The notes under the pieces: model-generated
Told to the model about the DNA's origin: nothing
What the model saw: only the letters and a program-made list of their open reading frames with translations
The model's database searches: none
Position numbers and translations under genes: made by a program
In this document: in pieces, positions 2,499-42,610 of the stretch
Numbering within the stretch: the stretch's first letter is position 1
Layout: each line of letters opens with the position of its first letter
Origin: Enterobacter mori LMG 25706
Lineage (GTDB): Bacteria; Pseudomonadota; Gammaproteobacteria; Enterobacterales; Enterobacteriaceae
Assembly (NCBI RefSeq): GCF_000211415.1
Contig: NZ_GL890776.1
Location: forward strand, 199,906-263,905
Direction: 5' to 3'
DNA: 64,000 bases

Positions 2499-3797
2499 TC
2501 AGGCAGGAATGGGAAGGGCGATGTTATGGTATACCGGCCAGCTAAAGCAGAAGCGCGCGCCGCCAAGTTTGCTCTCCTCACAATGTACCGTGCCGCCCAT
2601 CGCCTGGGCGATAGAGTAGACGATCGCCAGCCCAAGGCCACAGCCTCCGGTGGCGCGATCGCGGCTGGGGTCGAGGCGGACAAAGGGTTCAAAAACGGTT
2701 TCTCGTGCTTCCGGGGAAATTCCCGGCCCGTCATCCTCTACGGTCAGGCTCGCCTGATTGCCCTGCAAATCCAGGCCAATCCGCAGTGTACTCTCGCTGT
2801 AGCGCATGGCGTTATTCATCAGGTTATCCAGCACGCGCTCCATCAGGCGCATATCCAGCGCGCCGTAATCCCCCGGCGTCCCCGCCGTTAAAAGCGTGCG
2901 TTGGGGATTAACGCTCTGCACATCATCAATATGCGCCTGTAACCAGACGGGCAGATCCAGCGTGCTGAGGTTAAGCTCGTTTTGCGGACGGTCGAGGCGC
3001 GCGTAGGTCAGCAGCTCCTCAATCAGCGCTTCAAGCTGGCCAATGTCGCGATTCAGCGCCTGGTTCTCCGCCTCGGTCAGGTTCTCACTCATCTCCAGCC
3101 GATAGCGCAGGCGAACCAGCGGGGTACGCAACTCGTGAGCAATTCCGTCGATCAGCTGTTTCTTGCTGGCAATCAAGGCGTTAATGTTATCGGCCATCTG
3201 GTTAAACGCAATGCCGAGGCGATCGAAACTGGAACCGCTGTCGAAATGAATCCGCTCGGTAAGATGACCCTCACCAAAACGCTGCGCGGCAGATTCCAGT
3301 TTCAGCATGTCCTGCCAGTGTGGGCGCATCCAGATAAACACCGGAAAAGCCAGTGAAATGGCAATAAACGCCAGCAGGGCGAGGTCCAACAGGCGCATCT
3401 GATGCAGATAATACAGATAAGGCACCGGCCCGACGGCCAGTACGTAATGGCTGCGAGGAATACGCTGGATAAAGGTGTACTTTTCATCCAGCGCCACAAT
3501 GTCCCCGTCACGCAAACGTTGCAGGGTGGGGGCATCTAACTCGAAATCTTTCAATGGCTCGATGCGCAGATCGAATGACAGATTTAAATCCAGCTCTTTA
3601 AGGGTTTTCGCCCAGTCGTGCGGGGGAATTTCGCGCAGCTCGCTACGCATCAGATAGAGCGAGCTTTTCATCAGATCGTCCAGCGACTGCCTGCCCGCAC
3701 GTTCGGCGGTGAATTTATAGACCAGCCCGACCAGCATGGTCATCACCAGGAAGCAGACAAACAGCAAAAGATAAAACTGCACAAACAGCTTTTTCAT
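2499..3797 (-). CDS. rstB: Sensor histidine kinase RstB
   Basis: Inner-membrane sensor kinase of the RstBA two-component system, 432 residues. An N-terminal membrane segment (about 7-27), a periplasmic part, a second membrane segment (about 134-154) and a HAMP linker are followed by the dimerisation and phosphoacceptor motif GIAHELRTPLVRLR (His near 220), the N box NLMNNAMRYS, the G1 box DDGPGIS and the G2 box GGCGLGLAI. As I recall, in E. coli rstB follows rstA almost directly. Here 0.6 kb with a terminator, a possible promoter and a small gene separates rstA (4419-5135) from rstB, so kinase and regulator may be expressed independently. Confidence 0.95.
   Translation of the reverse strand: MKKLFVQFYLLLFVCFLVMTMLVGLVYKFTAERAGRQSLDDLMKSSLYLMRSELREIPPHDWAKTLKELDLNLSFDLRIEPLKDFELDAPTLQRLRDGDIVALDEKYTFIQRIPRSHYVLAVGPVPYLYYLHQMRLLDLALLAFIAISLAFPVFIWMRPHWQDMLKLESAAQRFGEGHLTERIHFDSGSSFDRLGIAFNQMADNINALIASKKQLIDGIAHELRTPLVRLRYRLEMSENLTEAENQALNRDIGQLEALIEELLTYARLDRPQNELNLSTLDLPVWLQAHIDDVQSVNPQRTLLTAGTPGDYGALDMRLMERVLDNLMNNAMRYSESTLRIGLDLQGNQASLTVEDDGPGISPEARETVFEPFVRLDPSRDRATGGCGLGLAIVYSIAQAMGGTVHCEESKLGGARFCFSWPVYHNIALPIPA
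2511..2518 (+). other. KOPS octamer
   Basis: GGGAAGGG fits the FtsK-orienting consensus GGGNAGGG. It lies inside the 3' end of rstB on the opposite strand and points to the right. Confidence 0.6.
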
Positions 3798-4418: not shown

Positions 4419-5135
4419 TCACGTTTCCCAGGCGTGCGGGGCGAACAGATAACCTTTATTACGCACGGTTTTAATGCGGTATGGCTCGGTGGCATTATCC
4501 TGCAGTTTTTTACGCAGACGCGAAATCGCGACGTCCACGCTGCGGTCCATTCCGTCATAGCTGACGCCGCGCAGGTTTTTCAGCAGGGCATCGCGGTCCA
4601 TGATCTGTCCAGCATGCGTTGCCAGCTCCCACAGCAGGTCAAAGTCTGCGGTGGAGAGAGCGATAAGCTCCCCTGAGAGCAGCACCTGGCGGTTAATGGG
4701 ATCAATAGACAGCGTACCGAAGCGCATCGCTTTGTGCGGCGTCAGAGACGGCGCGGGCGTTTCGCGTTCGCTGCTGGCGCGCTGGCGCAAATGAAGTCTC
4801 AGCCGGGCCAGCAGAACAGCTGGCGGCGTGGTTTTGAGAATGTAGTCGTTAGCGCCCATCTCCAGCGACAGAATATGGTTCATGTCGCTGTCCAGAGAGG
4901 TCAACAGCACGATAGGGCCCTCCCACCGGGCGCGCAGGTCACGGCAGAGCGTCATGCCATCTTTACCGGGCAGCATGATGTCCAGCAGCACCAGATCCGG
5001 GTTTTCGCGTAGCACAACCTCTTCAGCGCGATCGCCGCGAGGCTCAACGATGACGTCCATATCGTGTTTACCCAGATAAGCGGCGATCAATTGTCCCACT
5101 TCGGGTTCATCTTCTACATAAACAATCTTATTCAT
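4419..5135 (-). CDS. rstA: OmpR-family response regulator RstA
   Basis: Cytosolic DNA-binding response regulator paired with RstB, 238 residues. The receiver domain (about 1-115) has the acidic pair VEDEPE, the phosphoacceptor Asp in LVLLDIMLPGKDG (about 52) and the switch Thr/Ser in LLTSLDSD; the conserved Lys is in YILKTTPP. The C-terminal winged helix ends in VDVAISRLRKKL and IKTVRNKGYLF. The start MNKIVYVED matches E. coli MNTIVFVED; an in-frame ATG 12 codons earlier is ignored. A PhoP-type box lies 28-62 bases upstream. In E. coli RstA activates asr, and an RstA-like box precedes asr in this window (48988-49001). Confidence 0.96.
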   Translation of the reverse strand: MNKIVYVEDEPEVGQLIAAYLGKHDMDVIVEPRGDRAEEVVLRENPDLVLLDIMLPGKDGMTLCRDLRARWEGPIVLLTSLDSDMNHILSLEMGANDYILKTTPPAVLLARLRLHLRQRASSERETPAPSLTPHKAMRFGTLSIDPINRQVLLSGELIALSTADFDLLWELATHAGQIMDRDALLKNLRGVSYDGMDRSVDVAISRLRKKLQDNATEPYRIKTVRNKGYLFAPHAWET

Positions 5136-5162
5136 ACTGCGTCTGTTATCGCGAAAAAAGCC

Positions 5163-5197
5163 AACATACACCGCACAACCTTAACCTTCCATTAATC
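5163..5197 (-). promoter_or_regulatory. PhoP-type box and -10 element of the rstA promoter
   Basis: On the minus strand GATTAA (5197-5192), five bases, then GGTTAA (5186-5181) form a direct repeat like the PhoP box (G/T)GTTTA-N5-(G/T)GTTTA. Twelve bases further is a -10-like TATGTT (5168-5163), the spacing typical of PhoP-activated promoters. PhoP control of rstA is known in E. coli. Confidence 0.6.
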
Positions 5198-5263
5198 TTT
5201 CAAAATTAAGGCCAGTTCCGTTATTCTGCCTCATATTGTTTCTTGATTGTTATGGAAAAAATG

Positions 5264-5599
5264 ATGGGGCTGCTGATTAAAGCCGCGCTGGGTGCGCTGG
5301 TGGTGCTGTTGATTGGGGTGCTGGCGAAAACGAAGAATTACTACATTGCCGGGTTGATTCCGCTTTTTCCGACCTTTGCGCTCATTGCGCACTACATCGT
5401 TGCGTCCGAGCGTGGCATTGAAGCGCTGCGGGCCACCATTGTGTTCGGAATGTGGTCCATCATCCCGTATTTTCTCTACCTGCTGTCGCTGTGGTACTTC
5501 ACCGGTTTTATGCGGATTCCGCTGGCGCTGGGCGGGGCAGTGGTCTGCTGGAGCCTCAGCGCCTGGGTCTTGATCTTCTTCTGGAGCCGCTTTCACTAG
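5264..5599 (+). CDS. ydgC: Inner membrane protein YdgC (GlpM family)
   Basis: A 111-residue integral membrane protein with four hydrophobic segments (about 4-19, 25-44, 60-81 and 88-107); its biochemical role is not established. It is nearly identical to E. coli YdgC in the N-terminal half (IKAALGALVVLLIGVLAKTK). Of the possible starts (TTG 5243, ATG 5252, 5261, 5264) the one at 5264 gives the E. coli length and N-terminus MGL; none has a strong Shine-Dalgarno sequence. It is divergent from rstA, and its TAG stop shares bases with the stop codon of convergent folM (CTAG at 5596-5599). Confidence 0.9.
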   Translation: MGLLIKAALGALVVLLIGVLAKTKNYYIAGLIPLFPTFALIAHYIVASERGIEALRATIVFGMWSIIPYFLYLLSLWYFTGFMRIPLALGGAVVCWSLSAWVLIFFWSRFH

Positions 5600-6318
5600 C
5601 GAAGCGGGCGTCCTCCGTCCACGGAGAAGGTTCTGCCCGTAACGTAGCAGCTGGTGAGCAGGTAATCGATAAGGTCGATCACCTCTTTCTCGCCCGGGGC
5701 GATTTTCATCAGTGATTTATTCAGCGCCTGCTGGCGATACTCGGCATCATCGTGTTCGTTAAACAATATCATCGCCGGGGCGATGGCGTTCACTTTGACC
5801 TCGGGGGCCAGCTTGCGGGCAAACGAGCGCGTCATGTTATCCAGCGCGGCCTTGCTGGCCGCATAGGCGATGTGCTTGTCGCTGCCGCGCTCCACCACAT
5901 AATCGGTGAAATGAATAATGTCACCCGCGGCATGCCCGTGCCCGCGCAGTAGGTCTTGCAATGCATGGTTCAGCAAATAGGGCGCATTGACGTGGATTTG
6001 CAGCATGCAGGAGAGCGTTTCGCTCAGCGGTGTCGCAGGCGTTTCGGCCTGCCATGCGCTGGCGTTATGAATAATGGCGCGCAGCCCGCTGGTGGTAGAT
6101 TTCACCTTCTCCGCGAAAGCAAGAATACCCTCATCGGTTGAAAAATCGGCCTGAATACAGATCGCGCCGGCTTTACGCAATCCCTCAATCGAAGGGTATT
6201 CACTGCGGTAGCTGACGATAACCGGATGGCGAAGGTTGAGAAAGTGATGGGCAAGGGCGAGGCCGATACGGCGGCCTCCACCGGTGATCAATATTGGGCG
6301 TTGCTGTGCATTTCCCAT
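5596..6318 (-). CDS. folM: Dihydromonapterin reductase FolM
   Basis: Short-chain dehydrogenase, 240 residues as in E. coli, that reduces dihydromonapterin to tetrahydromonapterin with NADPH and has minor dihydrofolate reductase activity. Visible motifs are the cofactor-binding ITGGGRRIGLAL near residues 10-21, the NASAW segment near 86 and the catalytic YAASKAAL (Tyr near 155), with the substrate-side FTDYVVERGSDKHIA before it. It is cytosolic. It lies 39 bases downstream of arcD in the same direction and overlaps the stop of ydgC by four bases. Confidence 0.94.
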   Translation of the reverse strand: MGNAQQRPILITGGGRRIGLALAHHFLNLRHPVIVSYRSEYPSIEGLRKAGAICIQADFSTDEGILAFAEKVKSTTSGLRAIIHNASAWQAETPATPLSETLSCMLQIHVNAPYLLNHALQDLLRGHGHAAGDIIHFTDYVVERGSDKHIAYAASKAALDNMTRSFARKLAPEVKVNAIAPAMILFNEHDDAEYRQQALNKSLMKIAPGEKEVIDLIDYLLTSCYVTGRTFSVDGGRPLR

Positions 6319-6357
6319 CGTATTCTCCTTTTCAGTTCAACAATGGGAAAGGCGATG

Positions 6358-7740
6358 CTATCCCATTAACATCCACGTGGCCGGTACGGCAGCAATCAGT
6401 AACAACCCGATCGCGGCCATTTCACGGCGCTTGAGGGCGTTCTCCAGCTGATGCGTGCGACGTGCATAGATAAACACCAGCAGACCCGGCGCATACAACA
6501 CCACCGACAGCAGCAGATGCATAGGCCCGGAAGCATACAACAACCACAGACCGTAAATACAGGCGCCGACACCGACAATGTAATGCGCCGGGCGCGTCGC
6601 GATTTTTAACAAATACGCACCCACTAAGAAATAGGGTACCAGAATCATTTCAGAGGCGATGGTCAGCAGGGTGTTATAGTCCGAACCTGTGAGCCAGATC
6701 AGCACCAGACAGACCTGTACGCTGATGTTGGTGAGCCAGAGTGAGGCCGACGGCGCATTGTTTTTATTCTGGCGGGCAAACAGGCGAGGAAACGCCTTGT
6801 GCGTGGCGGCCAGGAACGGTACTTCTGCCGCCATGATGGTCCAGCTCAGGTAAGCGCCACACACGGAAACGATAAGCCCCGCAGCAATCACCACATCTCC
6901 CCACGGGCCGAGCATTTTCACCATCAGCCCAGCCATCGACGGATTACGCATTTCTGCCAGTTCAGGGCGCGCCACCACGCCCAGCGACAGCAGCGTCACC
7001 AGCAGATAGACCCCCAGCGCCGCCAGCACGGCCAACAGCGCGGCGCGGCCGACATCGCGCTTATTACGCGCCCGGGCCGAAACCACGACGGCACCCTCAA
7101 CGCCGATGAACACCCACAGGGTGATCAGCATGGTATTTTTGACCTGCTCCCAGACGGGCACGCCCAGCGCGATACCGGTGAAGTCGAGCTTAAAGACGTC
7201 AAGACGAAACGCAATAAATGCCAGCACGACAAACAGGCCAAGCGGGACCAGTTTAGCCAGCGTCGCGACCAGGTTGATGCTGGCCGCCGTCTGGACACCG
7301 CGTAATACCAGCCAGTGCACCACCCACAGCAGTACAGATGCCCCGACAATGGATTGCCAGGTATTGCCGTCACCAAACAGGCGGAGCTCAGGGGTATCGG
7401 TAAAGAAACTGAGCGCCGAGAAGACAATCACCAGGTAGGAGACGTTCGCGATCACCGCACAAAGCCAGTAGCCCCATGCGGAACAGAAGCCAATCAGCTC
7501 CCCGAAGCCTTCGCGGGCATAGGTGAAAATGCCGCCATCCAGATCGGGGCGAATGCGGGTGAGCAGCAGCATGGCAAATGCCAGCAGCAGGATCCCGACG
7601 CCGGTGATCGCCCAGCCAATAATTAACGCGGCAGGGCTTGCGACTGCCGCCATGTTCTGCGGCAAACTGAATACACCCGCACCCAGCATTGAGCTTAAAA
7701 CGAGTGCAGTTAATGCACTCAGGCCAAGTTTCTTTTCCAT
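6358..7740 (-). CDS. arcD: Arginine:ornithine antiporter ArcD (YdgI)
   Basis: Twelve-segment inner-membrane transporter of the basic amino acid/polyamine antiporter branch of the APC superfamily, 460 residues like E. coli YdgI. The N-terminal helix-1 motif SSMLGAGVFSLPQNM (about 16-30) is the substrate-binding break conserved in these antiporters. Function as an arginine:ornithine exchanger is assigned by family and is only putative in E. coli; no arginine deiminase genes are nearby. It is transcribed toward folM and may share its transcript. Confidence 0.9.
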   Translation of the reverse strand: MEKKLGLSALTALVLSSMLGAGVFSLPQNMAAVASPAALIIGWAITGVGILLLAFAMLLLTRIRPDLDGGIFTYAREGFGELIGFCSAWGYWLCAVIANVSYLVIVFSALSFFTDTPELRLFGDGNTWQSIVGASVLLWVVHWLVLRGVQTAASINLVATLAKLVPLGLFVVLAFIAFRLDVFKLDFTGIALGVPVWEQVKNTMLITLWVFIGVEGAVVVSARARNKRDVGRAALLAVLAALGVYLLVTLLSLGVVARPELAEMRNPSMAGLMVKMLGPWGDVVIAAGLIVSVCGAYLSWTIMAAEVPFLAATHKAFPRLFARQNKNNAPSASLWLTNISVQVCLVLIWLTGSDYNTLLTIASEMILVPYFLVGAYLLKIATRPAHYIVGVGACIYGLWLLYASGPMHLLLSVVLYAPGLLVFIYARRTHQLENALKRREMAAIGLLLIAAVPATWMLMG

Positions 7741-7890
7741 TGGCTTCCTGTTATGAAAGGTCCAAATCCAGAATAATTATTTCGCACGGGCGCATAAAAA
7801 TGGTGGATCACACTAAGGCGCGGGATTTTACGGAGTGTCAGGAAAGCATGCAATGATGTGTGGCCGAAATTAGAAAAAAAGTAACAAAAA

Positions 7891-7909
7891 AGGCGGCATT
7901 ACGCCGCCT
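7891..7909 (-). terminator. Intrinsic terminator after ydgH
   Basis: On the minus strand AGGCGGC-GTAAT-GCCGCCT is followed directly by TTTTTTGTTAC, 16 bases after the ydgH stop codon. Confidence 0.85.
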
Positions 7910-7925
7910 CAGATCAACCGTTTTG

Positions 7926-8870
7926 TTACTTATACAGATCGGCGCTGATGGTCATGTTGTTACCACGTTCCTGCCACTGGCGGGTGATGTGGTAGTACTT
8001 CGCGCCTTTCTTCGCCGCGCGCTTCGCGACCTGATAAGAGACTTCCGTTCCGTTGCCGTAGTTGCCGGTAAACTTGATGCTGTCGAACGGTACCATCTGC
8101 GCGGCAGTGGCGTTGTTCAGCTCTTCAATTTTGGTTCCATCCGGCAGAGTGACGGAATAGCGTCCACCTTTGGTGGTTTGCGTTTCAAAGAAACGGCCCA
8201 CTTCAGCGCTTGGCGCTGCTGAGGTCGCGACGCCCGGAATCTCAACTTTCTTCGCTTCTTCACCGCCTTTTGCTAACGCCGCACGTCCCGCATCGGAATC
8301 AGCAGGGATAGCGTCCGGGCTTTGCAGAACGCGTTTTTTCGCATCTTCTTTATAGATGAACGCGGTAATACGCTGGTTGCCGCCCTGGTTAGCATCCACC
8401 TGACGCACGATATAGAAAGAGTAAGCTCCTTTCTGCTTCGCGGCTTTGGTGATGGCATCGTTCACTTCAGGCTGGCTGCGGTAGAAGCCCTGAACGGTAA
8501 CGGTGTCATACGGCTCAAGCGCAATCGCCTGATCTTTTGGCAGCTCAACGATGCCGTTAATCACGCGGTTTTTCTGTTCATCCGCTTTAGGCGCATTTTC
8601 TTTGTACAGCGCAATGGTGACGCGCTGGTTGCCGCTGTTGCCCTGATCGGACTGATCGAGCACATAAAACGAAGCCGCGCCTTTTTTATCAGCGGCTTTT
8701 GACGCGGCGGCAACGCCGTCGCCAATGGAGTTGTAGCGACCCACAATGACCGTCTGGTCAAAAGGTTTTAACGCTGCCGCTTGCTCCGGCGTTAACTCTG
8801 TCGCGGCATTCGCAGACAGGGCGGTCGCGGAAAGAAGTGCGGACGCCAGGAGTGTGTTCTTAAGCTTCAT
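7926..8870 (-). CDS. ydgH: Periplasmic DUF1471 triple-domain protein YdgH
   Basis: Exported protein of 314 residues, the same length as E. coli YdgH. A signal peptide (MKLKNTLLASALLSATALSANA) ends with an Ala-X-Ala-type site near residue 22. Three DUF1471/YhcN-type domains follow; each shows the related pattern Y-x-x-D/ITRQ...N-x-R/MT-I-x-A-x-L/IYK (tails at about 95, 185 and the C-terminus). The start is at 8870, with AAGGAT upstream; the extra 10 codons to 8900 have no support. DUF1471 proteins are commonly stress- or biofilm-linked, but the molecular role is unknown. It diverges from pntA. Confidence 0.93.
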   Translation of the reverse strand: MKLKNTLLASALLSATALSANAATELTPEQAAALKPFDQTVIVGRYNSIGDGVAAASKAADKKGAASFYVLDQSDQGNSGNQRVTIALYKENAPKADEQKNRVINGIVELPKDQAIALEPYDTVTVQGFYRSQPEVNDAITKAAKQKGAYSFYIVRQVDANQGGNQRITAFIYKEDAKKRVLQSPDAIPADSDAGRAALAKGGEEAKKVEIPGVATSAAPSAEVGRFFETQTTKGGRYSVTLPDGTKIEELNNATAAQMVPFDSIKFTGNYGNGTEVSYQVAKRAAKKGAKYYHITRQWQERGNNMTISADLYK

Positions 8871-10935
<2,065 letters not shown>

Positions 10936-10942
10936 GGGGTAG

Positions 10943-12334
<1,392 letters not shown>

Positions 12335-12352
12335 GTTGCGCTGAAACGAAAA

Positions 12353-12378
12353 AACCGCCGAATCCGGCGGTTTTTTTA
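12353..12378 (+). terminator. Intrinsic terminator after pntAB
   Basis: AACCGCCG-AATC-CGGCGGTT hairpin followed by seven T, 18 bases after the pntB stop. Confidence 0.9.
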
Positions 12379-12446
12379 TTGCCGGGTGGCGCTCACGCTT
12401 ACCCGGCCTACGGTTTTGTAGGCCCGGCAAGCTTGCGCCGCCGGGC
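12379..12446. repeat. REP pair (BIME-like element)
   Basis: Two imperfect palindromic units face each other: 12379-12412 (beginning TTGCCGGGTGGCGCT and ending ACCCGGCCTAC) and 12418-12446 (beginning GTAGGCCCGGC and ending GCCGCCGGGC). The sequence is typical of enterobacterial REP units and it fills the convergent gap between pntB and uspE, the usual place for them. Confidence 0.85.
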
Positions 12447-12454
12447 GTTAGGGG

Positions 12455-13405
12455 TCAATCGTCTTCCGGGTCATCCAACTCAACCGGTGTCTGGAACTCA
12501 TCCGGCTTAATGACCAGCAGGTCGCAGCGCAGATGGTCGATCACCTGTTCGGCGGTATTGCCGAGGAACGCGGCTGAAATACCGGTGCGCCCGATGGTTC
12601 CCAGTACCACAATCCCCGCCTGAAGATGTTCCGCTAAATCCGGGATCACCTCTTCAGGCAGACCTTTTTCAACGTGCGTCATTTTCTCATCAATGCTGAA
12701 TTTTTGGCGCAGCGCTTTCATCGCCAGCAGGTGCTGTCCGCGGATCGCGTCGTTATAGACGCTCGGGTCAAATTCAGGCAGCTCAATGGCAATGTTAATC
12801 GGCGTGACCGGATACGCGCCCACAAGATGCACTTCGGTGTGATTGACCTGTTCGGCAAGCTGGATGGTTTCCTTCACCAGCTTCTCGTTTAGCGAATTGT
12901 GGTAATCCTCTTCGCTCGCGAGGTTTACTGCCACGACGGCTTTTCCGCCCTCAGGCCACGGCTGGTCTTTTACCATCCAGACCGGACAAGGACATTTACG
13001 CAGCAGATGCCAGTCGGTAGGGGTGAAGATCACGGATTCCAGCTTGTCATGCTGGTGCGCCATTTTCAGCAGCAGGTCGTGCCCACCGGCGACAACTTCC
13101 TGGATAATGGCTTCGAAAGGTCGGTTATGCCAGACCACTTTGATATCAATAGGAACACCCGCTTCCAGGTAATATTTCGCCTGTTCACGGATCCACGCGG
13201 TACGCTGGCCGATCACGCCCTGACGCATCGCGGTGCGCTCGTCAGGGGACAGAAGGGTGGTCATCTCATACGAGAAGTCATAGATCGGCAAAAACGCTTT
13301 GATTTTGCCACCAATCCGTTGATGTAAATACACAGCACGTCGTAATGCTGGCTGATCGTCCTGATTCGGATCGATAGCTACCAGCATGTTTTGATACTTG
13401 GCCAT
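12455..13405 (-). CDS. uspE: Universal stress protein UspE
   Basis: Tandem universal stress protein of 316 residues, the same length as E. coli UspE (YdaA). Two Usp domains are present: the first from [11 protein letters not shown] with a nucleotide-fold start, the second ending in [24 protein letters not shown] and DLLVIKP, which carries the G-x2-G-x9-G(S/T/N)-type loop. The C-terminus is acidic (ELDDPEDD). In E. coli it is growth-arrest-induced and affects motility and adhesion. It is cytosolic and lies upstream of the same-strand fnr block, oriented away from pntB. Confidence 0.95.
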
Positions 13406-34616: not shown

Positions 34617-35384
34617 ATGCACAGCGAAAACTTCAACATTTCCACCTATTTCAAACGCATAAACTATACCGGACCGGCGGGTGCCGATACGGTCACTCTG
34701 CATGCTCTTATGCGTCATCAGCTCTTTTCAGTCCCGTTTGAAAATCTGGATGTACAGGCGGGCAAAGTTGTCTCTCTGGTGCCAGACGACATTGCCGATA
34801 AGGTGCTAACGCAGGGGCGCGGCGGCTACTGCTATGAGGTGAACGGGCTTTTTGCCATGGCGCTGGAGGCGTTAGGGATACCTTACCGTTTTGTGGCGGC
34901 GCGCCCGATGTTCTACCCCGCGCGGCGGCCGAAAACCCATATGGCGCTCATCGCTGAGGTGGAGAGCCGACAGTGGCTTTGCGACCTCGGGTTCGGCAGC
35001 TACGGCATTCGCGCGCCGATGGCGCTGGACACGCTTGATGTGGAAATCACGCAGGATTTCGACACGTTCCGACTGAGCCGCAGCGCGGAGGGCGAGTACC
35101 TGCTTCAGGCGAAGGTGGAGGGGGAATGGGCTAATCAATACGGCTTTGATCTCACACCTCAGGAATGGATTGATTTCGTCCCGGCCAACTACCTTAACTC
35201 CACGCACCCGGAGGCGATCTTTGTGCAGAAGCGGGTGGTGGTGCAGCACAGCCCGGAGGGACGCCAGATTTTACTGGGCGATATGCTGAAAACCATCACC
35301 GCGAACGGCACTGAAACGCGGCAGCTGGCGGCGGAGGAAATCCGCCATGTCCTGAAAGACCGTTTTGCGCTGACCGCCGCGTAA
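34617..35384 (+). CDS. Arylamine N-acetyltransferase
   Basis: Acetyl-CoA-dependent enzyme that acetylates arylamines and hydroxyarylamines, 255 residues. The cysteine protease-like triad is visible: Cys in GRGGYCYEVNGLF (about 71), His in RRPKTHMALIAEV (about 107) and Asp in QWLCDLGFGSYG (about 122). E. coli NhoA is longer (281) and diverged, so this is a paralogue or a different NAT subtype. AAGGAGG lies six bases before the ATG. The MocR gene is divergent and may control it. Confidence 0.93.
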   Translation: MHSENFNISTYFKRINYTGPAGADTVTLHALMRHQLFSVPFENLDVQAGKVVSLVPDDIADKVLTQGRGGYCYEVNGLFAMALEALGIPYRFVAARPMFYPARRPKTHMALIAEVESRQWLCDLGFGSYGIRAPMALDTLDVEITQDFDTFRLSRSAEGEYLLQAKVEGEWANQYGFDLTPQEWIDFVPANYLNSTHPEAIFVQKRVVVQHSPEGRQILLGDMLKTITANGTETRQLAAEEIRHVLKDRFALTAA

Positions 35385-35402: not shown

Positions 35403-38400
35403 TCAGCCCGGCCCGTCGGCTGCGGCTTTGCGCTGAGCCCCCCTCTGTAACAGCAGGCTAAACGACGCGGGTAACACGGTCAGCGTCACCAGCGTCGCAA
35501 CCAGCAGCCCGCCGATGATGGCATAGGCCATTGGCCCCCAGAAGACCTGATGAGAAATGGGGATCATGCCCAGAATGGCGGCACAGGCGGTCAGACAGAT
35601 GGGCCTGGCCCGGCGTTCCGCCGCCGCCATAATTGCGGCATCGTTTGCCATCCCCTGAGCAAGATTGCTGTCAACCTCACTAATCAATATCACCGCGTTA
35701 CGCACGATCATCCCCGCCAGGGCGATAACGCCCAGCAGCGCGACAAACCCCATCGGCGTTCCGCCGGGGAGCATAGCCAGCACGATCCCCGGTAAACCAA
35801 ACGGGGCCATCAGGAGTGCCAGCAGCATACGGGAATATCGCCGTAGCTGAAGCATCAGCAGCAACAGCATGATGACCAGCGTTACCGGAAGAACGGTAAA
35901 GACGGAGCTGTTCCCCTTATCCGATTCGGCAACCGCGCCGCCTTCTTCAATGCTGTAACCTGCGGGCAGGCTCGCGCGCAGCTTATCGACCGCCGGACGC
36001 AGCGCCGTGGATACCGCTTCAGCCTTTAGCCCCGGGGCAAGATCCGTTTGCACCGTGATAAAGGGCACGCGCTGGCGGCGCCAGATGACCGGATCGTCCA
36101 CGCCCCAGACCGGCGTCGCGACGGCGCTGAGCGGAATTTTTTTACCGTCATTCCCCTGAATCGTGAGCGAGGAGAGGGTAGCGGTGCTGTGACGTGCATT
36201 GTCCGTGGCCCGGAGCACCACGTCGACAAGGCGGTCGTTATCCCTGATGGACGTGATCACGCTGCCAGACCAGACGGTGTTCAGCGTGCGTGCGAGGCTT
36301 TCTGACGATATTCCCGCCGCCCTGGCCGCCGTCTGATTCACCTTAAGGGTAATGACCCTCTCCGGCTCTCCGGCCGTCTGGTTCACGTCACGTGAGAACG
36401 GAGACTGTCCAATCGCGTCCGTGAGACGGTTCGCAAACGCCCGAACCTGCAGATAATAAGGCCCGCTCACCCGGTATTTGATTGGCCAGCCGACGGGCGG
36501 CCCCAGCTCAAGGGGCGACACGCGCGTGATGATGTCGCTAAACTGCGTCGCCAGGATCCTGTTGAGCTGCGCATGCAGACGATCCCGCGCCTCAAGATCT
36601 TTAGCCACCACGACCATCTGGGCGATATTTTCATTTTCCAGCAGCACGTCCATCGGCAGGTAAAAACGGATGGCGCCCGACCCAATGTACGTCGAATAGC
36701 GATTGATGTTGCCGTTGCCGACCAGCGCCTTTTCCAGCTTTTCCACCTCTCTTAACGTTTCCGGCTGCGACGCGTTGGCCGGAAGCGTCAGGCTGACTAG
36801 CAACTCAGGCCTGTCCGAAGCGGGGAAAAACTCGCCCTGCATAAACGTCGTGCCGTACACGGACAGCCCCAGCGCGGAAAGGGCGAACAGCAGGGTAGCG
36901 ACTCGGTGACGCAGTGCCAGGCGTAAAAGCCGTCCGTACCCGCGCGCGATCCTTCCGGGTCCCGTCGCGTGATGTCTGACTTTTTCCGGCAGTAGCCACG
37001 TGCCCATCAGCGGTGAAAACAGGGTCGCGACAGCCCAGGAACAGAGCAGGGCAATGAGCACCACCGCAAACAGGGAAAAACAGTATTCACCGGCGCTGGA
37101 GGCCGCGAAACCAACGGGAATAAAACCGGCAATCATCACCAGAGTACCGGTGAGCATCGGGAAGGCCGTCGTTTTGAATGCATGGGTGGCCGCATGCCGA
37201 CGGGAATCACCCGCTTCCAGCCGGGAGACCATCGTTTCGACGGCGATCATGGCGTCATCCACCAGCAGCCCCAGGGCAATGATCAGCGCTCCGAGCGAGA
37301 TACGCTGAAGGCCAATACCGGCGAGCATCATGCCGGCAAACGTCATGGCGAGCACCAGCGGGATGGCCGTCGCCACCACCAGTCCGGCCCGTAAACCCAG
37401 TGAAACAAATGAAACCGCCAGCACGATAATAACGGCTTCGATAAGCACCCGGATAAACCCGCTTACCGCGTCACTGACCACCGCCGACTGATCGGCGACT
37501 TTTACCATCTCTATGCCGTGCGGAAGCCCGGCGCTGAGGGCCGCCATTCTGGCGTTCAGCGCAGCACCGAAACGCAGCATGTTGCCCGTTGGTGCCATCG
37601 ACACCGCCAGCCCGATAGCCGGTTTGCCGTTCACCCGGTAGGCCGGTGCCGGAGGCTCGGCGATTTCCCGGGTGACGGTGGCAATGTCGGTCAACGGAAT
37701 ATAGCGATTGTTAACGTGCAGCGTGACGGCACGTAAGCTCTCTTCGGTCGTGAGCGCCCCGCTGACCTTTATCGCCATGTTCTCCCGCCCGGTACGCATA
37801 ACGCCAGCCGGAACAACCGCGTTCTGCGCCCTGAGGGCGTCGGCGACGGCCTGAATATCGAGCCCCATCCCGGCCAGGCGTGCCGGAGAAAAGGCGAGAA
37901 CCCACTGCTCCTGCTGTTCGCCCAGCAGGGTGGTTTTGCCCATATCCGGCAGGGACATAAGCTCGCGACGTATTGTCTCTGCGCGATCCCGTACCTCCCG
38001 CAGGGTGAAACCTTCGGGAATAAAGGCATAAATTGTGCCGAACGTGTCATCAAACTCGTCGTCCACGGCAGGGCCCTGCACTCCTTCAGGCAGGGACGGC
38101 GCGATGTCCTGCATTTTTTTGCGAACCTGATACCAGATGTCCGGCACGCTTTGCGGGGGCGTATCGTCACGGAGGTTGACATGGATAACGGTGCGTCCAG
38201 CGCGGGTTTCACTTTCGAGATAATCCAGCCAGGGCGTTTCCTGCAGCTTTTTTTCAAGCGTATCGGTCAGCAGGCGGGTGGTATCCGCCACGGATGCCCC
38301 CGGCCACTGCGCGGAGACGACGGCCGTTTTAATGGTGAAAGCCGGATCTTCGTTACGCGGCAGCTTCTCATAGCAGAACACGCCCATCGCAATCACCAGC

Positions 38401-38480
38401 AGCATGAAAAAGCTGACCATCTGCGGGTTCTTCAGCGCCCAGGCGGAGAGGTTAAATTTGGCTTCCGGTCCTGTGTTCAT
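35403..38480 (-). CDS. RND efflux transporter, TriC-like branch
   Basis: Inner-membrane proton-driven drug exporter of 1025 residues. Membrane helix 1 opens with SAWALKNPQMVSFFMLLVIAMGVF; two large periplasmic loops follow. The proton-relay Asp pair is in LGLLVDDAMIAVE (equivalents of AcrB Asp407/408), whereas the AcrB Lys940 position is Arg (GMIVRNAVILI). The N-terminus (KLPRNEDPAFTIKTAVV...WPGAS) resembles Pseudomonas TriC rather than AcrB. It is the last gene of a likely operon regulator-kinase-adaptor-pump, overlapping the adaptor gene by four bases (ATGA). No outer-membrane channel gene is present, so TolC is presumably shared. Confidence 0.92.
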   Translation of the reverse strand: MNTGPEAKFNLSAWALKNPQMVSFFMLLVIAMGVFCYEKLPRNEDPAFTIKTAVVSAQWPGASVADTTRLLTDTLEKKLQETPWLDYLESETRAGRTVIHVNLRDDTPPQSVPDIWYQVRKKMQDIAPSLPEGVQGPAVDDEFDDTFGTIYAFIPEGFTLREVRDRAETIRRELMSLPDMGKTTLLGEQQEQWVLAFSPARLAGMGLDIQAVADALRAQNAVVPAGVMRTGRENMAIKVSGALTTEESLRAVTLHVNNRYIPLTDIATVTREIAEPPAPAYRVNGKPAIGLAVSMAPTGNMLRFGAALNARMAALSAGLPHGIEMVKVADQSAVVSDAVSGFIRVLIEAVIIVLAVSFVSLGLRAGLVVATAIPLVLAMTFAGMMLAGIGLQRISLGALIIALGLLVDDAMIAVETMVSRLEAGDSRRHAATHAFKTTAFPMLTGTLVMIAGFIPVGFAASSAGEYCFSLFAVVLIALLCSWAVATLFSPLMGTWLLPEKVRHHATGPGRIARGYGRLLRLALRHRVATLLFALSALGLSVYGTTFMQGEFFPASDRPELLVSLTLPANASQPETLREVEKLEKALVGNGNINRYSTYIGSGAIRFYLPMDVLLENENIAQMVVVAKDLEARDRLHAQLNRILATQFSDIITRVSPLELGPPVGWPIKYRVSGPYYLQVRAFANRLTDAIGQSPFSRDVNQTAGEPERVITLKVNQTAARAAGISSESLARTLNTVWSGSVITSIRDNDRLVDVVLRATDNARHSTATLSSLTIQGNDGKKIPLSAVATPVWGVDDPVIWRRQRVPFITVQTDLAPGLKAEAVSTALRPAVDKLRASLPAGYSIEEGGAVAESDKGNSSVFTVLPVTLVIMLLLLMLQLRRYSRMLLALLMAPFGLPGIVLAMLPGGTPMGFVALLGVIALAGMIVRNAVILISEVDSNLAQGMANDAAIMAAAERRARPICLTACAAILGMIPISHQVFWGPMAYAIIGGLLVATLVTLTVLPASFSLLLQRGAQRKAAADGPG

Positions 38481-39625
38481 GGCTGAACCTCTCCAGCCAT
38501 CACCGGCTCGCCGGACCGCAATGTGCTCACGCCCGCCGTGATCACCCGATCGCCCGGCTCAAGGCCGGAGGCAATCATGACGGAGGTGGCCGTATAGCTC
38601 GCGGGCACCACCGCGCGCAGCTGCGCCCGCGACTGCGGGGTAATCACAAAAACGGCCGGTTTGTCGCCTGCACGGCTCAGCGCCGAGGCGGGAAGGGTGT
38701 ACCCGTGCGGGGCTGACGATGGAAACGTGACGGTAACGCTGGCACCCAGCGCCATGGCCTCTGGCGGGTTATGCAGGGTGGCTCTGACGCGCCAGGTGCG
38801 GGTCTGGGGATCGGCCTGCGGGGTGATATCCCGCAGCGCGGCGGACGCCTGTACCGACGGGGCGCTGAGGAGGGAAACCTGTAAAACCGCCTTATCCAGA
38901 GGCGGGATCGCATCGGGGGTGGCAATATCAAACGCCACGTCGCGACCTTCTCCGGTCGCCAGCGTCAGCACGGACTGTCCATCGCTGACAACCTGCCCCG
39001 CAGAGGCGTTCACGGCCGTGATTACGCCCGCTTGTGGCGCGATCAGGCGCGTCCAGCCGAGGCTTTCGCGGGCATTTCGCCACGCGGCCTCGCTGCTTTT
39101 TAAGCGCGCGCTGGCGACAAGCCAGTCCGCACGGGCGCTGTCGAGCTGCGCGCGGGCTATCGCACCCGTTGGCATGAGCTTTTGCATTCGACTGACGTTA
39201 AGCGCGGCGACCTGCGCTGAGGCTTTAGCGCCTTCATAGTCGGCCGCTGCGCTGTCGAGCTGGTTTTGCCCGGTCGTGTTGTCAAGCGTGGCCAGCAGCT
39301 GTCCGGCAGTGACCCGGTCGCCAATATCAACGCTGCGCGTCAGTATCCGGCCCCCGGTACGAAAGCTCAGGGTCGTTTCATCGTGGGCATGGATCTCACC
39401 GGTTCTTTCCAGCGCGGGAAGAGTTTGGGCGGCCCCGACGACGACGTAGCGTACCGCTCGCACAGGGTCGGGCTTGTTTTCGTGTTTATCACCGCAGCCG
39501 GTCAGCGGAAAAATCGCCAGCGCAAGCAGCGCCAGGGGAAGAAAATACAGCCAGGAAAGGGTGCGCGCCACGCCGTACAAATGATGCAGGCAGTGGCGGA
39601 GGGAGAGAAATAATTCGTCTGACAT
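38477..39625 (-). CDS. RND periplasmic adaptor (membrane fusion) lipoprotein
   Basis: A 382-residue HlyD/AcrA-type adaptor. A hydrophobic stretch ends in the lipobox FPLTGCGDK (Cys near 44), so it should be a lipoprotein; the 26 or so residues before the hydrophobic part are longer than usual. The lipoyl half motif GDRVTAGQLLATLD and its partner GVITAVNASAGQVVSDGQSVL flank a coiled hairpin (about 112-190). The ATG at 39625 has GGAG eight bases before it; a GTG closer to the hydrophobic stretch is possible. The gene lies 78 bases after the kinase gene and overlaps the pump gene. Confidence 0.9.
   Translation of the reverse strand: MSDELFLSLRHCLHHLYGVARTLSWLYFLPLALLALAIFPLTGCGDKHENKPDPVRAVRYVVVGAAQTLPALERTGEIHAHDETTLSFRTGGRILTRSVDIGDRVTAGQLLATLDNTTGQNQLDSAAADYEGAKASAQVAALNVSRMQKLMPTGAIARAQLDSARADWLVASARLKSSEAAWRNARESLGWTRLIAPQAGVITAVNASAGQVVSDGQSVLTLATGEGRDVAFDIATPDAIPPLDKAVLQVSLLSAPSVQASAALRDITPQADPQTRTWRVRATLHNPPEAMALGASVTVTFPSSAPHGYTLPASALSRAGDKPAVFVITPQSRAQLRAVVPASYTATSVMIASGLEPGDRVITAGVSTLRSGEPVMAGEVQP
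38690..38697 (+). other. KOPS octamer
   Basis: GGGAAGGG within the adaptor gene (opposite strand); points to the right. Confidence 0.55.
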
Positions 39626-39703
39626 AACGCCGCTCCATAAAGGTAATGGCGTTATTAAATGCGCGCTACGTCGAGAAAGATTCGATGTTGTGTCAAGGCT
39701 TTA

Positions 39704-40900
39704 TCAAGAGTGGATATTTTCATTCTCGGATGGATGCCAGGGCAACAAAATGCGCACGGAGAGGCCGCCGGTTTCCGGTAATGACGCGCTAATTTCTCCG
39801 CCATGCGCCTGACAAATCGCCCGGGCGATGGACAAACCGAGGCCGCTACCGCCGGAATGCCGCGCGCGGGACTGCTCCTCGCGGCTGAAGCGTTTAAACA
39901 TTTCCGGCAAGAACTGGGGCGATACGCCCGGCCCGTCATCGGTAAATTCAAGGGTGTAATGCCCGCTGGCGTCGTGCAGCGCCACCTCAAGATGGCCGCC
40001 ATCGCGCCCGTAACGTAGTGCATTTTCCATGAGGATGGTCACGACCTGTCCCAGACGGAACGCATCGCCTCTGAAGGGGCAGCTACGCGGGTTACGAAGC
40101 GTTATCCGGAAATGATGCGCATCAGCCTGGGGCATGATCCAGGCGGCCCGCTCCTGAATCAGCTCATCCAGACAGAACGGCTGGTCCTCCAGCACGAGAT
40201 TACCCGCGTCGGCCAACGAGAGAAGGTGGAGCTCATCGGTGAGACGGCTGAGGTGCTGGAGCTGCTTCATCACCATTTCCAGCTGCGCGGGGCTGGCATC
40301 AAACACGCCGTCTAACATGCCCTGCAGACGCCCGATGGCGGCCGTCAGGGGCGAGCGTAGCTCGTGCGCCATCGCCACGTGTGAGGCGCGGAGCTCTTTT
40401 TCATAGCGAGCGAGTTGCCCCGTCATGGAGTTAAAGTCGGTCGCAAAGCTGACCATTTCCGCCGGGGCATCTTTGATAAGTTCCGCCTGACGGCCAAACT
40501 GCCCTTCGGCGACATACTTTGCCGCATCGCGAAGGCGGCTGAACTGCAGCGCCAGCGGCCGGGCGTGTTTTAGCCCCATCACCACAATAAACGGGATCAT
40601 CACCAGCACCAGCAGCGCCACCGTGACCCAGTCGGCTGAGGCGATAGACGGCGTGGAATAGCTCAGACCCCACCAGGTGTCCACAATCGTGTGGAAGCGG
40701 GCCGGATTGGCCTGCGGGTTCTGGCTAAGCGTAAGAAACTCCTGTCGGACCGCCGGCGGCATCCTGCCCATTATCCAGTAGTTCTGTACCGCATAACGTA
40801 GCCACATGCAGGTGGCAATGACGATCACGCTGCCGATGGCTAGCGCCAGGATACGCGCGCAAATCCAGCGCCACAGAGAGGAGTGCCGGTTTTTTATCAT
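39704..40900 (-). CDS. Sensor histidine kinase linked to RND efflux genes
   Basis: Inner-membrane kinase of 398 residues. Two membrane helices (about 13-35 and 91-110) enclose a short periplasmic part; a HAMP-like linker leads to the phosphoacceptor motif VAMAHELRSPLTAAIGR (His near 178), then ILMENALRYG, DDGPGVS and GGSGLGLSIARA. It overlaps its response regulator by four bases. Context and the AdeR-like partner suggest it senses antimicrobial or envelope stress, as AdeS does in Acinetobacter; this is an inference. Confidence 0.92.
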   Translation of the reverse strand: MIKNRHSSLWRWICARILALAIGSVIVIATCMWLRYAVQNYWIMGRMPPAVRQEFLTLSQNPQANPARFHTIVDTWWGLSYSTPSIASADWVTVALLVLVMIPFIVVMGLKHARPLALQFSRLRDAAKYVAEGQFGRQAELIKDAPAEMVSFATDFNSMTGQLARYEKELRASHVAMAHELRSPLTAAIGRLQGMLDGVFDASPAQLEMVMKQLQHLSRLTDELHLLSLADAGNLVLEDQPFCLDELIQERAAWIMPQADAHHFRITLRNPRSCPFRGDAFRLGQVVTILMENALRYGRDGGHLEVALHDASGHYTLEFTDDGPGVSPQFLPEMFKRFSREEQSRARHSGGSGLGLSIARAICQAHGGEISASLPETGGLSVRILLPWHPSENENIHS

Positions 40901-41592
40901 GGTTGTCTGAACCTGTAACCTACGCCGCGAACGTTGATCAGCACGCCGGAAATACCCACCGCTTCGAGTTTTTTACGCAGGTTATAAATATGCGTGTCCA
41001 CCACGCGCTCCAGCGCCTCGCTTTCCGGCAAACAGTGTTCCAGTAAATACTGGCGGGAGAACGGGTGCGCAGGAGAACGCAGCAGCGTTGCCAGAAGCGA
41101 GAATTCCGTTGGCGTAAGATCGAGCATCACAGGCGTGTCGTCGCCGTTATCCACGCTCGCCACAATGGCGGCGACATCCACCTCCAGCGTTTGCCAGCGA
41201 AGGATCTTTTCCTCTGTCTCTTTTTTACTGCTGCGCCGCAGCCCCGCCTGCACCCGCGCCACCACTTCGCCCGGATGATAAGGTTTAACAACGTAATCAT
41301 CGGCACCGTAGCGCAGGGCGCCAATGCGATCGGGGGTATCCCCCATGGCCGTAACCATGATCACCGGCACGTCGCTTTTACGACGCAGGCCCGCCAGCAC
41401 CTCGGTGCCGTTGAGCCCCGGCAGCATCACATCCAGCAGGATGAGGTCGGGTTTCCACCGCTGGGCCATATCCAGCCCGGAAAGACCGTCTCTGGTAATG
41501 GTCACGTCGTAATTTTCACGCCGTAAATAGGCTTCGAGCACGCCAGCCGCATCGGCGTCATCTTCAATAATCAGCACTCTTCTGGACAACAT
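40897..41592 (-). CDS. OmpR-family response regulator, AdeR-like
   Basis: A 231-residue regulator. The receiver has LIIEDDADA, the phosphoacceptor LILLDVMLPGLNG (about 53), MVTAMGD and VVKPYHPGEVVARVQ; the C-terminal winged helix ends with SEALERVVDTHIYNLRKKLE and VLINVRGVGYRF. The tail is strikingly like that of AdeR, the activator of the AdeABC pump of Acinetobacter baumannii, from memory. The start at MLSRRVLIIED has AAGGTGAACGG upstream; nine extra in-frame codons are ignored. It is the first gene of the efflux operon and diverges from the MipA-family gene at 41717. Confidence 0.92.
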   Translation of the reverse strand: MLSRRVLIIEDDADAAGVLEAYLRRENYDVTITRDGLSGLDMAQRWKPDLILLDVMLPGLNGTEVLAGLRRKSDVPVIMVTAMGDTPDRIGALRYGADDYVVKPYHPGEVVARVQAGLRRSSKKETEEKILRWQTLEVDVAAIVASVDNGDDTPVMLDLTPTEFSLLATLLRSPAHPFSRQYLLEHCLPESEALERVVDTHIYNLRKKLEAVGISGVLINVRGVGYRFRQP

Positions 41593-41716
41593 CCGTTCAC
41601 CTTGACCATTTCTTAACACTATCCCGACGATTCATTGATTCAGCCAAATCATACTGCGCCAACATTGTGTGGCCGCTCCTGTACCAGGAGACGCCAGCGT
41701 CTGTATGGAGAGCAGT

Positions 41717-42502
41717 ATGATAGCGATAAAAAAAGTCCTGTATATGTCCGTCCCGCTTCTGATGGTCGTGGCATCCGGCGCGCAGGCGGATGATGGCTCT
41801 GCGTCCGATTCCTTAACCGTCGGGCTGGGGGGACAGTATGCCCCGCGTTACTCAGGCTCAGACAAGCAGGTGTGGCAGGTGGTTCCTGTGCTGCAAGGGC
41901 GCAAAGGCGCTTTCTTTATTGATGCGCAAAAAGGGCTGGGATATGACCTGCAAAACGACAGCGGTTGGTATTTCGAACACACGCTGGGCTACGACTTCGG
42001 AAGGGCTGATAAAAATTCTGACTGGCGTGAGGGCGCAAACAATCTGAAAGGGATGGGGAACATTGATGCCACCCTGAATACCGGCCTTGCCGTGGGCTGG
42101 CAGGCCGCGCCCTGGCTGAGTGTGGAAGGCAAAGCGACGCTGCCGTTAACGGACAGCCAGGGAGGAAGCTATCAGGCCTCCGTTACGCTAATCCCTGTAC
42201 AAAATAACCAGGACACGGTCGCCTTTCAGTCTGCGGCCCTGTTTGGCGACAGCCGTTATCTGAATACATGGTATGGGGTCAGCGAGCAGCAGAGCCGCCG
42301 CACCGGATATCACCGCTATTCAGCGCCGGGTGGATTTTATGGCGTCGACACCAGTCTGACCTGGAGCCATCAGTTCGATGCCCACTGGGGAACGGTCCTG
42401 AGTGCGGACTATACCTGGCTTGGCGACCATGCGAATGAAAGCCCGATTGTGATGCGGCGAAATGAGGGGTCTGCAACCGCCGCAATCACCTGGACATTTT
42501 AA
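41717..42502 (+). CDS. MipA/OmpV-family outer membrane protein
   Basis: A 261-residue outer-membrane barrel protein. A signal peptide (IAIKKVLYMSVPLLMVVASGAQA) is predicted to be cleaved before DDGSASD. The mature part begins with the family motif SLTVGLGGQYAPRYSGSDK and ends with alternating strands and a terminal aromatic (AAITWTF), typical of barrels inserted by BAM. GGAGAG precedes ATG 41717; an ATG four codons earlier is also possible. It shares a 124-base gap with the AdeR-like regulator, which may control it. Two small perfect inverted repeats lie in the leader (41676-41690 and 41690-41701). Confidence 0.9.
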   Translation: MIAIKKVLYMSVPLLMVVASGAQADDGSASDSLTVGLGGQYAPRYSGSDKQVWQVVPVLQGRKGAFFIDAQKGLGYDLQNDSGWYFEHTLGYDFGRADKNSDWREGANNLKGMGNIDATLNTGLAVGWQAAPWLSVEGKATLPLTDSQGGSYQASVTLIPVQNNQDTVAFQSAALFGDSRYLNTWYGVSEQQSRRTGYHRYSAPGGFYGVDTSLTWSHQFDAHWGTVLSADYTWLGDHANESPIVMRRNEGSATAAITWTF

Positions 42503-42517
42503 CGTCGAGGTGACGGT

Positions 42518-42610
42518 ATGCGCTTATGGGATTGGCCATTTTTCAGTACGGCAGTAGTAGTGATCGCGGGGATATACGTCATAACCTACTATGTGTATGT
42601 CTATACGTGA
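42518..42610 (+). CDS. 30-residue putative membrane peptide downstream of the MipA-family gene
   Basis: A 30-codon frame starting 15 bases after the MipA-family stop, with GAGGTGACGG placed as a strong Shine-Dalgarno sequence before its ATG. The peptide starts MRLWDWPFF and continues as a single hydrophobic helix (STAVVVIAGIYVITYYVYVYT). It has the form of the small single-pass membrane proteins of enterobacteria. I do not recognise it. Tight spacing suggests co-translation with the outer-membrane protein. Confidence 0.6.
   Translation: MRLWDWPFFSTAVVVIAGIYVITYYVYVYT

Follow-up and report, generated by a model that had tools for sequence, protein, structure and literature searches.

An AdeRS/BaeRS-like two-component system, a MipA/OmpV-family gene and a TriC-type pump in Enterobacter mori: a conserved cassette with two matched DNA boxes

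A 64,000-nucleotide stretch of the Enterobacter mori LMG 25706 genome (contig NZ_GL890776.1, positions 199,906 to 263,905; hereafter the window) was analyzed computationally, following an earlier sequence-only reading of its positions 35403 to 42610. This segment holds a cassette of five genes, encoding a response regulator, a sensor histidine kinase, a periplasmic adaptor, a resistance-nodulation-division (RND) permease and, divergently, a MipA/OmpV-family protein (mipA). We propose that the cassette is probably a self-contained envelope-stress efflux circuit resembling MipA-ParRS-MexXY of Pseudomonas aeruginosa, a reading to which we give a probability of about 0.62. In such a circuit, the kinase would sense an agent acting on the envelope, for which a cationic antimicrobial peptide or a similar cationic amphiphile is the likeliest candidate, and the phosphorylated regulator would bind two boxes conserved in the DNA, thereby activating both the mipA promoter and the adaptor-pump promoter. 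The TriC-type pump would export the agent or its damage products via a TolC-family channel encoded elsewhere, and MipA, under the same regulator, would most likely serve the sensing arm as a co-sensor or feedback element, as it does for ParRS, this being the least certain step.

Gene content and conservation of the cassette

The sequence-only reading had placed the regulator, kinase, adaptor and pump genes consecutively on one strand, with 4-base overlaps between the RND and adaptor genes and between the kinase and regulator genes, a 78-base gap between kinase and adaptor, and mipA and a small peptide divergent. All of these genes were found in place, the overlaps and the gap were exact, no outer membrane channel gene was present in the cluster, and the five-gene cassette is thus confirmed as described. 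A single simple operon is not, as a conserved promoter-like element (the second box, see below) lies in the 78-base gap before the adaptor-pump genes. Relatives favored later gene starts than those of the listed open reading frames (ORFs), with the regulator ATG at 41592 and the mipA ATG at 41717, leaving a divergent gap of 124 bp. Of 31 loci, 26 had a gap of 120–130 bp, and the remaining five measured 86, 90, 90, 135 and 276 bp.

A search of relatives for the same cluster, which the sequence-only reading had proposed as a check, was performed by scanning named genomes with the kinase and returned 17 loci spanning Enterobacter, Lelliottia, Klebsiella, Kosakonia, Rouxiella, Hafnia, Serratia, Mangrovibacter and Phytobacter. 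Two Cronobacter plasmids brought the related loci to 19, and all of these kept regulator, kinase, adaptor and pump; the arrangement is therefore not due to chance. A divergent mipA lay beside the regulator gene in 18 of the 19, though only part of it in L053, where the contig stops; the L045 sequence breaks off within the regulator gene. The outer neighbours of the window cluster were common to the Enterobacter and Lelliottia loci and were not in place in the other genera. Twelve further plasmid or E. coli regions were picked from match lists. The five-gene order was present in seven of them: on three plasmids of K. pneumoniae (one of these named NDM1), on two of Pantoea and one of E. coli, and in an E. 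coli chromosome. Another two were variants (L081 and L082), and three alphaproteobacterial regions had no MipA, two of these having no two-component pair by the pump and the third a different pair.

At family level, the kinase (E ≤ 1e-75) was detected in 36 of 295 genomes, E. mori included, and in 24 of 154 genera; in a class sample of 274 genomes (E ≤ 1e-60) it was found in the E. mori genome only. A pump ortholog (at least 55% identity, E ≤ 1e-250) was detected in 29 of these 295 genomes; each of the 29 belongs to the 36 kinase carriers, and at E ≤ 1e-250 none turned up in the 259 non-carriers.

With its receiver and Trans_reg_C domains, the regulator belongs to the OmpR/PhoB family. The sequence-only reading had called it AdeR-like, and AdeR was indeed its best NCBIfam model (224.8 bits, cut-off 340); for the kinase the best model was BaeS, with 189 bits (cut-off 603), followed by AdeS with 185.5 bits (cut-off 500), the AdeS match starting at residue 84, past most of the sensor loop. 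By these scores the pair is AdeRS/BaeRS-like, below the AdeR, AdeS and BaeS cut-offs, whereas the name AdeRS is not supported, because the AdeR and AdeS scores fall under the equivalog cut-offs and the AdeS match excludes most of the sensor loop.

The claim of a TriC-like pump held well: compared with solved chains, the permease scored 1029 bits with 6vej, which we take to be the TriC structure, and 874 bits with MexK, far above the next best chain (252 bits) and AcrB (about 210 bits). On sequence, it is a TriC/MexK-type RND permease, and the aspartate pair of transmembrane helix 4 and an arginine at the position of AcrB K940 were kept in 14 of 14 cassette pumps aligned. The closest solved match of the adaptor was, likewise, the adaptor chain of 6vej (365 bits). 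Its lipobox-like motif ends at Cys44, and most of 24 loci compared share its long N-terminal extension. All 24 loci aligned retained the Arg and Leu of AcrA at the hairpin tip, and the third position was Ser or Ala; in AcrA, these residues dock TolC.

Two matched boxes and their movement with mipA and the pump

Alignment of the divergent gaps revealed one conserved block (box 1) and alignment of the kinase-adaptor gaps a second (box 2) of the same design. Both consist of four CTTGA-like half-sites with an 11-bp period, followed after 11 bp by a -10-like hexamer, and both are oriented to their target gene. On a half-site score of 20, the means over 27 loci were 16.1 for box 1 (minimum 14) and 16.3 for box 2 (minimum 11, in L055 and L056), compared with 10.2 (SD 1.2) and 10.0 (SD 1.1) in shuffled gaps, where a score of at least 15 was reached in 0.15% and 0.11% of 2700 trials each. 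The match to TATAAT was maximal 11 bp past the last half-site, at 4.15 of 6 for box 1 (27 loci) and 4.52 of 6 for box 2 (25 loci, excluding L055 and L056). Further, a matrix built from box 2 only put box 1 second in 11 of 11 classical-order loci scanned, and a matrix from box 1 only put box 2 second in 10 of 11, the exception being L057. The distance from the end of box 2 to the adaptor start was 46 bp in 19 of 27 loci. Since the half-site of box 1 closest to the regulator overlaps the ribosome-binding region of that gene, part of the box 1 conservation could serve translation.

These data suggest that the same regulator turns on both the pump and mipA. Because the matched boxes point at both, the adaptor-pump genes probably have their own internal promoter and mipA is probably a co-target, in line with the earlier suggestion that MipA may be the regulated partner. 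The direct repeats at an 11-bp period lie near a pump gene, a layout that may parallel that of an AdeR site.

Searched against the E. mori genome with as many as three mismatches allowed, the box pattern matched the two cassette boxes at 0 mismatches, as expected of a pattern drawn from them, and three other sites at 3 mismatches (7.1 bits or less each); the reversed pattern gave 8 matches. An earlier, shorter pattern had matched the cassette site and, with 3 mismatches, three more sites; its reversed control gave 10. A regulon beyond the cassette in this genome was thus rejected, as the extra sites are weak and fewer than those of the reversed-pattern controls. Eight other genomes gave 60 pattern matches; among the 26 of these that were scored, two exceeded 15 bits away from known cassette loci. 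These two box-like sites (G324 C22, 24.8 bits, and G130 C1, 19.9 bits; L196 at 3330 and L197 at 4377) come from a genus in which the cassette lacks a pump, and their downstream ORFs were uninformative.

Natural REARRANGEMENTS were employed as controls. Thirty-six loci (the window, L129–L162 and L163; the kinase-positive G019 was left out) were scored at 15 bits with a matrix from 16 loci (the window, one further genome and 14 named), some of them from the same species as the scored loci. A directed box was present in all 32 loci with mipA (fragmented in L133 and L148), and in the four loci without it (L136, L145, L147 and L156) no box was found in the regulator upstream gap. Among the 30 loci with an adaptor gene, 22 had its own box and L147 had one just outside the distance rule; in L158–L162 the adaptor lies 41–76 bp behind mipA and is led by the mipA box, and in L141 and L142 there was none. 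No box was found near the kinase in L136, L152, L154 and L155, which have no pump there. Seven boxes were left unassigned by the rule, all of them beside two-component, pump or Mig-14 genes, and in the 535,754 bases around the loci no box above 15 bits was detected outside two-component, pump, mipA or Mig-14 surroundings. A more distant pump (45–47% identity) was also present in three of the pump-bearing kinase genomes; the two of these pump loci inspected, L164 and L165, have two adaptors, a channel-looking gene and no box above 15 bits.

The boxes travel with the genes, as observed in L163, L158–L161, L162 and L081. In G079, the regulator-kinase pair (L136) has neither beside it: mipA and the adaptor-pump genes form a back-to-back arrangement at a distance of about 145 kb, and each has its box. 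A Salmonella IncHI2A plasmid has a shortened mipA behind the pump, still with a box. Two loci, L097 (which has no pump) and the K. pneumoniae plasmid L082, have a gene for a hydrophobic protein of 48–51 residues after the box that lies behind the kinase, and this gene adjoins a Mig-14 gene (PF07395, 204 bits each). L153 and L157 also match a profile built from the L097 and L082 Mig-14 proteins, and L097 has a third, weaker box (16.8 bits) ahead of Mig-14. The hydrophobic-protein ORF stands directly after the box and by Mig-14 in both loci (L097, about 7340–7486, minus strand; L082, about 3130–3285, plus strand), and the N-terminus of the L097 protein resembles the N-terminal extension of the adaptor.

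Table 1. Features of the E. mori cassette, in window coordinates.
Feature	Position	Strand	Basis or remark
RND permease, TriC/MexK type	35403..38480	-	Pfam ACR_tran and closest solved chains; proton-relay Asp pair kept, Arg at AcrB K940 position
Periplasmic adaptor, lipoprotein by LTGC motif (Cys44)	38477..39625	-	Pfam HlyD-type; long N-terminal extension; nearest is the 6vej adaptor chain
-10-like hexamer TTTAAT	39654..39659	-	11 bp past box 2
Box 2, four CTTGA-like half-sites, 11-bp period, toward adaptor-pump	39671..39708	-	Gap alignment; overlaps kinase stop codon
Sensor histidine kinase, catalytic part BaeS/AdeS-like, short periplasmic loop	39704..40900	-	Pfam HisKA/HATPase
OmpR/PhoB-family response regulator, AdeR-like	40897..41592 (listed ORF start 41619)	-	Response_reg/Trans_reg_C; conserved ATG
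Box 1, four CTTGA-like half-sites, 11-bp period, toward mipA	41601..41638	+	Gap alignment
-10-like hexamer CATACT	41650..41655	+	11 bp past box 1
mipA, MipA/OmpV family, predicted outer-membrane beta-barrel	41717..42502 (listed ORF from GTG 41669)	+	Pfam and conserved ATG
30-codon ORF, hydrophobic peptide	42518..42610	+	Patchy conservation behind mipA

Of 59 other genomes, two (G010 and G018, of the same genus) had a homolog of the 30-codon peptide, as did a C. dublinensis plasmid; with this distribution, a general role as conserved partner was rejected. An arylamine N-acetyltransferase gene (window 34617–35384) is convergent with the pump gene and lies beside it in five of six close Enterobacter/Lelliottia loci (L041–L045, not L046). 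The cassettes of L131, L132 and L133 (genus g92) are decaying, with a stop inside the kinase gene in L131 and with no full regulator match and shortened spacing in L132 and L133. L080 and L084, from the NDM1-named plasmid and the E. coli chromosome, share a cassette variant with fluoride exporter and enolase genes, and a fluoride riboswitch is also annotated at the E. coli chromosomal copy. Finally, the E. mori genome has a second mipA (L070, C5:264500-281500, 4856–13085), divergent from another regulator-kinase pair and adjoining an RND operon with a small regulator, presumably OqxAB-OqxR by their looks. CTTGA boxes were absent at this second mipA/two-component pair, where the best score was 3.4 bits.

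The role of MipA and the nature of the signal

In P. aeruginosa, according to Janet-Maitre 2024 (PMC10936184), MipA binds polymyxins, mipBA is under ParRS, and deletion of mipBA abolishes the ParRS induction of mexXY-oprA. The same study describes a two-component system beside mipA in most loci screened (50 homologs requested), so the pairing as such is not new. A MipA/OmpV gene is also reported in the polymyxin-responsive BesRS regulon of B. thailandensis. The E. mori cassette would share with ParRS-mipBA-MexXY-OprA a two-component system that controls a MipA barrel gene as well as an RND pump, with mipA near the two-component genes. It differs in its host family, Enterobacteriaceae, in having no MipB-like gene in the cluster, and in a TriC-type pump encoded in the same cluster, whereas MexXY is distant; further, control is predicted here from the DNA. 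Because of the missing MipB-like gene and the other pump type, we file the cassette, by analogy, as a variant that may work like ParRS-MipBA, not as a member of it.

Several points weigh against the proposed circuit. Firstly, MipB acts with MipA in Pseudomonas, the only genus for which PMC10936184 reports a MipB-mipA pairing, and the E. mori cluster has no MipB-like gene, its proteins belonging to other Pfam families (the remaining genome was not searched for MipB). Kinase and pump occur without a nearby mipA in L147 and L156, indicating that an adjacent mipA is not essential. A box persists behind the kinase in three loci with no pump there, L144, L145 and L098 (the last outside the 36-locus set), L144 retaining an apparent stump of the adaptor gene. 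The Mangrovibacter-type loci (L055, L056, L141 and L142) are without a good box 2, and the boxes are credited to the cassette regulator solely by position and conservation. The predicted MipA model, mostly strands, is of modest confidence (mean predicted local distance difference test score 65). Over 34 loci, MipA sequence distances gave 0.88 against the kinase and 0.76 against the pump; without L157, L162 and L158–L161 (28 loci), the values were 0.65 and 0.69, and closer tracking of the kinase was dropped as proof, since the difference vanishes without the rearranged loci. The substrates reported for TriC relatives are triclosan, sodium dodecyl sulfate (SDS), benzalkonium or dyes. Finally, MexXY itself does not take polymyxins as a substrate, as stated in PMC10936184; sensing a peptide therefore need not mean exporting it.

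A serious but unlikely alternative is that MipA does no sensing and is only a co-regulated effector, e.g., a cell-wall scaffold or an altered porin, with the kinase sensing directly. In E. coli, MipA is a scaffold for MltA and PBP1B. This explanation would accommodate L147 and L156 as well as the missing MipB-like gene, and a box ahead of mipA indicates co-expression only. However, mipA adjoins its own two-component system here and another pair elsewhere in the same genome, and mipA, regulator and kinase are kept without the pump in L152, L154, L155 and L097; the P. aeruginosa precedent (PMC10936184) is that of a co-sensor.

Similarly doubtful, in our judgment, is a pump system responsive to metals, biocides or a self-metabolite and unrelated to cationic peptides. 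Such a signal would agree with the triclosan reported for TriC and MexK and the benzalkonium, rhodamine or SDS reported for Serratia relatives, and one plasmid copy lies near fluoride and heavy-metal-associated genes. Against it, the CrrA, ParR and AdeR systems with RND targets are reported to act on cationic compounds, and Mig-14 stands beside the same boxes in the variant loci. Mig-14 is said in a review to raise antimicrobial-peptide resistance in Salmonella and E. coli, and its position beside the boxes points to peptides as the signal, short of proof.

As for the outlet, TolC is the likely one: PF02321 (TolC-family) proteins are encoded elsewhere in the E. mori genome, and the Serratia group-5 pumps SdeIJ and SdeNO are reported to work via TolC/HasF. 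MipA matched PF06629 with 150.1 bits (cut-off 24.2), and the 50 structural matches listed for its model comprised Tsx, PcoB, NanC, OmpG and other barrels, with template modeling scores of about 0.2–0.54 and no TolC chain among them. MipA as the channel of the pump itself is thus unlikely, since a small beta-barrel is predicted and the adaptor retains an AcrA-like hairpin tip. The idea that it replaces TolC as outer-membrane exit, which could draw on the lack of a channel gene in the cluster, the regulator box shared by mipA and the pump lying directly behind mipA in L158–L161, is highly improbable given these features, the TolC-family proteins, the Serratia pumps and L082, where an OEP-family channel gene lies near the adaptor-pump genes and mipA is only short.

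Returning to the envelope-stress circuit, a more specific version would be a mobile feedback loop, in which MipA captures or reports a cationic compound to the kinase, leading to more MipA and pump via the two matched promoters, and which moves as a unit among Enterobacteriaceae, multidrug-resistance plasmids included. We advance this version tentatively, with slightly less than even confidence.

Relation to other systems and implications

Another AdeR-type regulator adjoining an RND gene in Enterobacter is that of CrrAB-KexD (E. cloacae ECL_01758-01762), which is reported to respond to colistin and NOSO-502 by activating that gene (PMC9664853, PMC11892822). The two systems differ in their pumps, KexD sharing 49% identity with AcrB and partnering with AcrA and TolC whereas the E. 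mori pump is TriC-type, and CrrAB-KexD forms a separate locus with crrC; MipA is not mentioned in the accessible part of PMC9664853. The E. cloacae 'AdeR homolog' of PMC11892822 was considered as a candidate for the present locus and rejected, as it is CrrAB-KexD.

The likeness to AdeRS-AdeABC of A. baumannii comprises the regulator family, a pump target and, possibly, a direct-repeat site, whereas the E. mori pair scores below the AdeR and AdeS cut-offs. AdeRS-AdeABC differs also in that adeABC is divergent from adeRS, in its other pump type and in having no known MipA. With TriABC and MexJK of P. aeruginosa, the cassette shares the closest solved pump and adaptor sequences; it has one adaptor per cluster where TriABC has two, and it adds a dedicated two-component system and MipA. 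None of the papers listed in searches of the open-access literature described the box pair or, for Enterobacteriaceae, a two-component system together with MipA and a TriC-type pump. The component families are known; the five-gene cassette and its box pair are apparently undescribed.

Current annotation splits the cassette into five separately named genes. As it is found on plasmids of human Klebsiella isolates, the cassette may be a transferable, inducible efflux module, and since no site above 15 bits fell off-context in the approximately 536 kb around the loci, the 38-bp box matrix may tag the regulon elsewhere. Recurring in many genera, the DNA evidence links MipA, a family that is poorly understood, with one particular regulator and one particular pump, and the idea of MipA as a co-sensor becomes testable within one compact cluster.

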